From: an uncultured Halobacteriovorax sp. | GTDB taxonomy: Bacteria; Bdellovibrionota; Bacteriovoracia; Bacteriovoracales; Bacteriovoracaceae | DNA: 64,000 bases | Reading direction: 5' to 3' | Assembly (NCBI GenBank): GCA_913061265.1 | Contig: CAJXVS010000002.1 | Location: 372,001-436,000, forward strand | Part shown: positions 57,721 to 58,576 of the stretch, one piece after another | How the letters are laid out: each line of letters starts with the position of its first letter | Position numbering within the stretch: position 1 is the first letter of the stretch | Notes under the pieces: model-generated | Seen by the model: only the letters and a program-made list of their open reading frames with translations | The model's database searches: none | What the model was told of the DNA's origin: nothing | Translations under genes and position numbers: made by a program

Positions 57721-57764
57721 TCTATCTATCTATCTATCTATCTATCTATCTATCTATCTATCTA
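57721..57764. repeat. Tetranucleotide microsatellite (TCTA)11
   Basis: Eleven perfect tandem copies of TCTA, 69 bp upstream of the HEPN gene start and 15 bp after the preceding stop codon. Outside coding sequence, so a change in copy number would alter promoter spacing or leader rather than frame. Confidence 0.97.
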
Positions 57765-57832
57765 TATGTTCTATATAAGCCTCTATTTAATTCCCGATTT
57801 TTATAAATACTACACTGTGATATAGTTCTCTG

Positions 57833-58576
57833 ATGAATTGTCTAATGTGCGGAAATATTTTGAAAAGATCTGGAGCCTCTGAAGAAATGGATGATTTCGA
57901 TGAGAATATGACAGATGGTCAAATGACCGATTATTTTACTGCATTAGAAATGGGTGATAATGGAAATTGGAATGTCGCTACAACTGAATATAGTTGCATG
58001 TTTTGTCATTATACTATTGAAGAAGTTAGCGATACATTAGAGATTTTCCGTTCATTGATTATAGTGTGGCATGAAAAAGCCAACGAAGACGGGGATATCT
58101 TTTCAAAGTTTGTATTTCAATATCTTTCTTTTGTAGCCCACCTCAAAAATAATCTTTTTTCGGATATTGGATTCGATAGAGGAATGATTCAGAGTCTGAA
58201 AAATGATGAGAGTATTAAAAAAAGATATTTGAGTTTAGTAGAATCAAACTTTGAGATATTTTATGCATGGCAAGAGGTTATAGAAGAGTTAAAAAGAAAA
58301 CCATTGAAGAACTCATCACATGATATCGATAATCCTACAGTTGATGGAAGATGGAATGATACAGATTTAAGGAAGGTTAAGAATCAAAAGTGTTCTAAAA
58401 GAAAGGGGGTTATTTTAAATCATAAGGATTGGGGAAATATGATTGAATTTTGGTATGGAGTAAGAAATAATTTGTTTCATGGTGGTAAAAATCCAGATTT
58501 ACTAAGGGACAGCTTTCTCGTTCTAAATGCTTATATAACACTCAGGGGATTAATGGAGATTGAGTTAAGGATATAA
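57833..58576 (+). CDS. Zinc-ribbon plus HEPN-like protein, putative RNase
   Basis: 247 residues. N-terminal zinc ribbon: Cys3-x-x-Cys6 and Cys55-x-x-Cys58. The C-terminal helical domain ends in GVRNNLFHGGKNP, with Arg211 and His216 forming the Rx4H motif of HEPN ribonucleases, followed by the usual long helix (DSFLVLNAYITLRGLMEIEL). HEPN proteins with this motif are commonly toxins or defence RNases, though some Rx4H proteins are inactive. No paired antitoxin gene is seen beside it. No ribosome site is apparent before the ATG; promoter TATAGT lies about 10-15 bp upstream of the start, so the message may be nearly leaderless. The (TCTA)11 tract lies just upstream. Confidence 0.75.
   Translation: MNCLMCGNILKRSGASEEMDDFDENMTDGQMTDYFTALEMGDNGNWNVATTEYSCMFCHYTIEEVSDTLEIFRSLIIVWHEKANEDGDIFSKFVFQYLSFVAHLKNNLFSDIGFDRGMIQSLKNDESIKKRYLSLVESNFEIFYAWQEVIEELKRKPLKNSSHDIDNPTVDGRWNDTDLRKVKNQKCSKRKGVILNHKDWGNMIEFWYGVRNNLFHGGKNPDLLRDSFLVLNAYITLRGLMEIELRI

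Follow-up and report, generated by a model that had tools for sequence, protein, structure and literature searches.

The locus and its gene neighbourhood

The window analysed here is a stretch of 64,000 nucleotides from Halobacteriovorax sp. contig CAJXVS010000002.1, and all coordinates below are positions within it. A predicted gene for a 247-aa protein, preceded by a perfect tetranucleotide tract, is found among the following features.

44107..58576, +: defence hotspot around the HEPN-like gene, seen from profile searches and from the unlike defence genes that a sister species carries there
44107-46623, +: HsdR-like protein
46624-47235: 203-aa protein, weakly HsdR-like
47232-48743, +: HsdS
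48753-50201, +: HsdM
50204-51994, +: OLD/PtuA-like ATPase
53249-53980, +: DnaB/KaiC-like protein (NCBIfam PRK05973)
53968-57249, +: 1093-aa protein with a C-terminal nitrilase-like domain
57343..57705, +: predicted membrane protein of 120 aa, its stop codon 14 bp before the tract
57720..57765, +: perfect (ATCT)11.5 tract, which is (TCTA)11 in the other register; proposed slippage-prone regulatory tract (TRF and sequence)
57766..57832, +: AT-rich 67-bp leader from tract to start codon, with a weak Shine-Dalgarno sequence and a 19-codon ORF inside
57833..58576, +: predicted HEPN-type RNase, 247 aa, with CxxC at residues 3-6 and 55-58 and a C-terminal E205-FWYGV-R211-NNLF-H216-GGK (from the ORF, conservation in two homologues and low-confidence models)
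60299: PDDEXK (PDC-S26-like) gene, after the HEPN-like gene

Judged by its gene content, the locus from 44 to 58.6 kb is a defence hotspot. A defence setting for the 247-aa gene, whose product the initial annotation took for a toxin or defence RNase, is well supported, since a type I restriction-modification system, the OLD/PtuA-like ATPase and the PDDEXK gene are its neighbours, and since the same chromosomal spot in a sister species (G001), anchored by an aldo/keto reductase with 72-74% identity, holds other defence-type genes: a GajB-like helicase, SIR2 and a restriction enzyme. The type I operon (44107-51994) runs in the order R, 203-aa protein, S, M, followed by the ATPase.

The DnaB/KaiC-like gene also lies in the middle of the sister species' spot, with 89% nucleotide identity, although the defence genes around it differ completely between the two species. 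The conserved stretch (53112-53949 here, L062:12123-12960 there) includes about 140 bp of upstream noncoding sequence, whereas other DNA common to both species at the hotspot is roughly 66-80% identical. By these comparisons the gene looks like a constant companion or a mobile anchor of the hotspot; relatives occur in three further genomes (G015, G017 and G035). A search of 38 other genomes of the phylum gave no relative of the 1093-aa or the 120-aa neighbour. The larger of these orphans matches the PADLOC RTasNitrilase model (DRT, RT-nitrilase) in its nitrilase-like domain only, and because no reverse transcriptase match was found in it, a distinct defence protein with a nitrilase effector is a possible reading.

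The 247-aa HEPN-like protein

In HEPN RNases an arginine-histidine pair sits where one helix ends and ahead of the next, and the superfamily includes DUF4145-like proteins, for which zinc-ribbon fusions are listed, as well as ApeA and RNase LS (PMC3710099). The 247-aa protein resembles them in its Rx4H motif, in the polar residue that follows the arginine, in its restriction-modification and defence neighbours and, according to low-confidence models, in the placement of the pair at a helix end; it differs from them in having no match to the HEPN models of Pfam, NCBIfam or PADLOC, or to a solved HEPN structure. The motif itself, reported in the initial annotation as Arg211 and His216, can be read directly in the ORF as R211-N-N-L-F-H216 and is invariant in three distant lineages, as is the whole block E205-FWYGVRNNLFHGGK (E205...RNNLFHGGK). 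Besides the protein itself, these lineages comprise two homologues, the only convincing ones that the searched collections gave, one from the acidobacterium Acidipila rosea (L003, 45% identity) and one from a deltaproteobacterial MAG (L004, 46%). Both retain EFWYGVRNNLFHGGK and the cysteines. The protein has two CxxC knuckles of a putative zinc ribbon (C3-x2-C6 and C55-x2-C58), with a 48-residue spacing between the pairs that is long for a simple ribbon; all four cysteines align as conserved in the three lineages, the second pair being CxC in the MAG protein.

No Pfam, NCBIfam or PADLOC profile matched the protein above cut-off, and a PDB sequence search returned no match. Two fold searches against the PDB, run with low-confidence models, gave no significant match and were uninformative; rows for IRE1 and RNase L in these searches were weak (E of 1.5 or more) and we disregarded them. 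Membership in a named HEPN family was rejected after this series of searches. Since no profile matches, the assignment rests on the motif together with its helix-loop-helix placement in low-confidence models: mean pLDDT is only 60 and 65 in the two models, which predict a helix at 200-215, a loop and a helix at 223-246, and both put R211/H216 (R210/H215 in the MAG homologue) at a helix end before the second helix. A profile match is how HEPN families were defined rather than a biochemical requirement, and we limit the claim to "HEPN-type by motif". In that sense, reading from the motif rather than from a family match, we consider the protein probably a HEPN-type RNase. The zinc-ribbon/HEPN label given to it earlier thus holds at the level of motifs, the CxxC pairs and Rx4H, and is confirmed by no family profile or fold search.

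About 85,000 species genomes were covered by the pattern-seeded scan that yielded the homologues; it reaches close relatives only, so that the rarity of the family is an upper-level impression and not a census. Among 369 genomes of the phylum, and in viral contigs, plasmids and phages, no further homologue appeared beyond a doubtful 24% partial match in one genome (G052). As far as these comparisons go, the family appears to be undescribed, rare and horizontally scattered in defence islands. The surroundings of the MAG homologue (L004:280-2726) suggest a conflict setting again: two copies of a 32-nt CRISPR-like repeat stand 181 bp away at the contig end (L004:1-100), and after the homologue come a Fic-like gene and a nucleotidyltransferase/HEPN-like pair, these last two identified by eye and not by profile.

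The tetranucleotide tract and the leader

TRF reports ATCT repeated 11.5 times with 100% matches at 57720-57765, and the same is visible directly in the sequence, which bears out the eleven perfect tetranucleotide repeats noted at the outset. Their position just before the start of the gene stands as well, with the distance corrected from 69 bp to 67 bp between the tract end and the ATG at 57833. The length of the tract is far beyond chance. In 464 kb of its own genome it is the longest period-4 run, with 42 matching positions against 10 for the runner-up, and the longest such run in five order-5 Markov simulations was 12. A census of simple sequence repeats (SSRs), made up of a sample covering 22% of the genome and a genome-wide search for TCTA alone, found no second tetranucleotide tract of at least four units in the 864 kb sampled from the 3.97-Mb genome; the remaining simple repeats in that sample are all 18 bp or shorter, and the tract is the sole instance of (TCTA) with at least six units genome-wide. 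Among 58 relatives such a run occurs in one only (G026), with seven units at an unrelated intergenic site. The flank of the tract was scanned against viral contigs with no match. One mark of an SSR contingency locus is a perfect short tandem repeat much longer than chance would give, and the ATCT tract has that property. The genome sample holds no other long SSRs and so gives no hint of a wider set of contingency loci, a point against a regulatory role.

By position, the tract is upstream and noncoding. None of the frames running into it begins at an ATG, GTG or TTG, and all three frames that leave it reach stops (57776, 57804 and 57823) upstream of the ATG at 57833; the 19-codon ORF within the leader runs from an ATG at 57766 to a TAG at 57823-57825. 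Slippage is therefore unable to switch the protein on or off by frame, a model that we rule out, and any effect of the tract must be exerted on transcription, mRNA stability or translation initiation.

The sequence around the tract offers few signals. No sigma-70-like promoter in the intergenic region rises above background or random windows; the best candidate, TTTTTA-17-TATAGT at 57798-57826, is unremarkable and scores no better than random windows. The ribosome site of the 247-aa gene is weak. No terminator was seen between the 120-aa ORF and the tract, and the gap between that ORF and the 247-aa ORF, both on the same strand, is 127 bp. The tract is predicted to be mostly unpaired in RNA, and shuffled sequences fold at least as well as the leader RNA (z = 1.39). 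It had been proposed that slippage would alter promoter or regulator spacing; the anatomy fits a tract in a promoter or 5'UTR region, and the exclusion of frame switching leaves transcription or mRNA as the level of any effect, but no recognisable sigma-70 promoter stands out around the repeats.

Possible effects of the tract on the downstream gene

Upstream repeat tracts often make gene output vary between cells in other bacteria. We tentatively suggest that the ATCT tract may well be another such element, a slippage-prone regulatory repeat in the promoter or 5'UTR region that grades transcription of a single predicted defence RNase gene. Gain or loss of units would shift the spacing, or the DNA or mRNA context, upstream of the 247-aa gene; the altered context would produce graded differences in transcript level between cells; and some of the cells would thereby contain more, or less, of a costly RNase, which would cleave RNA during attack by phage or mobile elements. 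A weak ribosome site and the lack of a strong promoter of its own are compatible with a context-sensitive leader. That the tract and the gene together add a new case to a known class of contingency loci is plausible but unproven. A fuller picture, in which a HEPN-type RNase that stands alone and belongs to an undescribed family, sited in a defence hotspot, is tuned across the population by a promoter-proximal tetranucleotide tract, so that an abortive-type defence RNase is subject to stochastic bet-hedging at the transcript level and not by frame switching, is more doubtful.

It is also possible, and to be taken seriously, that the tract is a young intergenic microsatellite, mutable but silent, whose changes in length have no effect on the downstream gene and which is tolerated because the spot is noncoding and the region recently acquired. 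No repeat lies upstream of either homologue, which argues against the regulatory reading: the tract is, on this comparison, not an inherent part of the gene's design, and we reject the idea of an inherent gene-plus-tract module. Location is weak evidence too, since 62-67% of the noncoding bases in the window (8.8% of its length) sit within 113-150 bp upstream of some gene; noncoding microsatellites mostly fall this near upstream of a gene. The failure to find a promoter near the repeats and the (TCTA)7 at an unrelated intergenic site in G026 also suit a silent repeat. Against it, a perfect tract of 11.5 units is unique in the genome, and as no other run of even four units exists in the 864 kb sampled, such tracts do not simply accumulate here.

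A regulatory effect need not involve promoter spacing. Read-through from an upstream promoter across 53249-57705 would place the repeats in an intercistronic mRNA, where an unstructured (UCUA)n could alter mRNA stability or translation coupling; the same-strand genes, the lack of a terminator before the tract, the weak ribosome site and the predicted unpaired state of the repeats accord with this, but the intergenic gap and the ordinary folding of the leader count against it, and we regard it as improbable. Tandem repeats directly upstream of an RNase gene also recall the general layout of type III toxin-antitoxin systems, in which the repeats would make an RNA that sequesters the downstream RNase. 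In type III systems the repeat unit spans tens of bases and a terminator precedes the toxin gene, whereas the unit here is 4 nt and unstructured, there is no terminator, and the homologues are without repeats; we rejected an RNA antitoxin, which is very unlikely. Just as unlikely is an assembly or sequencing artefact in the length of the tract: the length does come from a single assembly, but ordinary reads are longer than its 46 bp, and on both sides coding and intergenic sequence runs on unbroken within a 629-kb contig.

In host-adapted pathogens, upstream tetranucleotide tracts are known to cause phase variation mainly of surface proteins, and in-frame tracts mainly of methyltransferases. 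If the ATCT tract is regulatory, a close parallel may be uspA2 of Moraxella catarrhalis, where an (AGAT)n tract of 12-20 units, 132 bp upstream, gives 1.4- to 3.4-fold changes in mRNA (PMC7302503). The repeat class is the same (AGAT/ATCT), the length is similar, and both tracts are noncoding and upstream (132 bp there, 67 bp here); regulation acts at the mRNA level in uspA2 and is only proposed for the ATCT tract. The uspA2 product is a surface protein of a host-adapted pathogen for which variation and mRNA effects have been measured, whereas ours is a predicted defence RNase. In Neisseria meningitidis a (TAAA)n promoter tract alters operator spacing at nadA (PMC2791445), and we likewise propose that a tetranucleotide tract in an upstream region acts through spacing; nadA differs in having operators, an IHF site and a promoter mapped around its tract. 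In Haemophilus influenzae the phase-variable type I restriction system is likewise a defence function under SSR control, and exposure to phage is the selective force; its pentanucleotide tract is classed among coding SSRs (PMC2651432). There the tract switches the reading frame, which the ATCT tract, upstream of a predicted defence gene, cannot do.

Upstream tetranucleotide contingency tracts are thus already known, as are defence genes switched by SSRs. Pairing such a tract with a predicted HEPN RNase that stands alone would be new, if the tract regulates; no published case turned up in the literature, which is not proof of absence. Should the regulatory reading be true, it would suggest that stochastic hedging against the cost of toxic immunity is open to bacteria, here with a predicted suicidal RNase in a genome whose sampled part has no other such tract. 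The case also points to an undescribed RNase family, horizontally scattered in defence islands.

The shorter (ATCT)7 tract of G026 is independent; it occupies L006:1500-1529, and the gene that begins about 80 bp downstream is predicted to encode a secreted isochorismatase-like protein.
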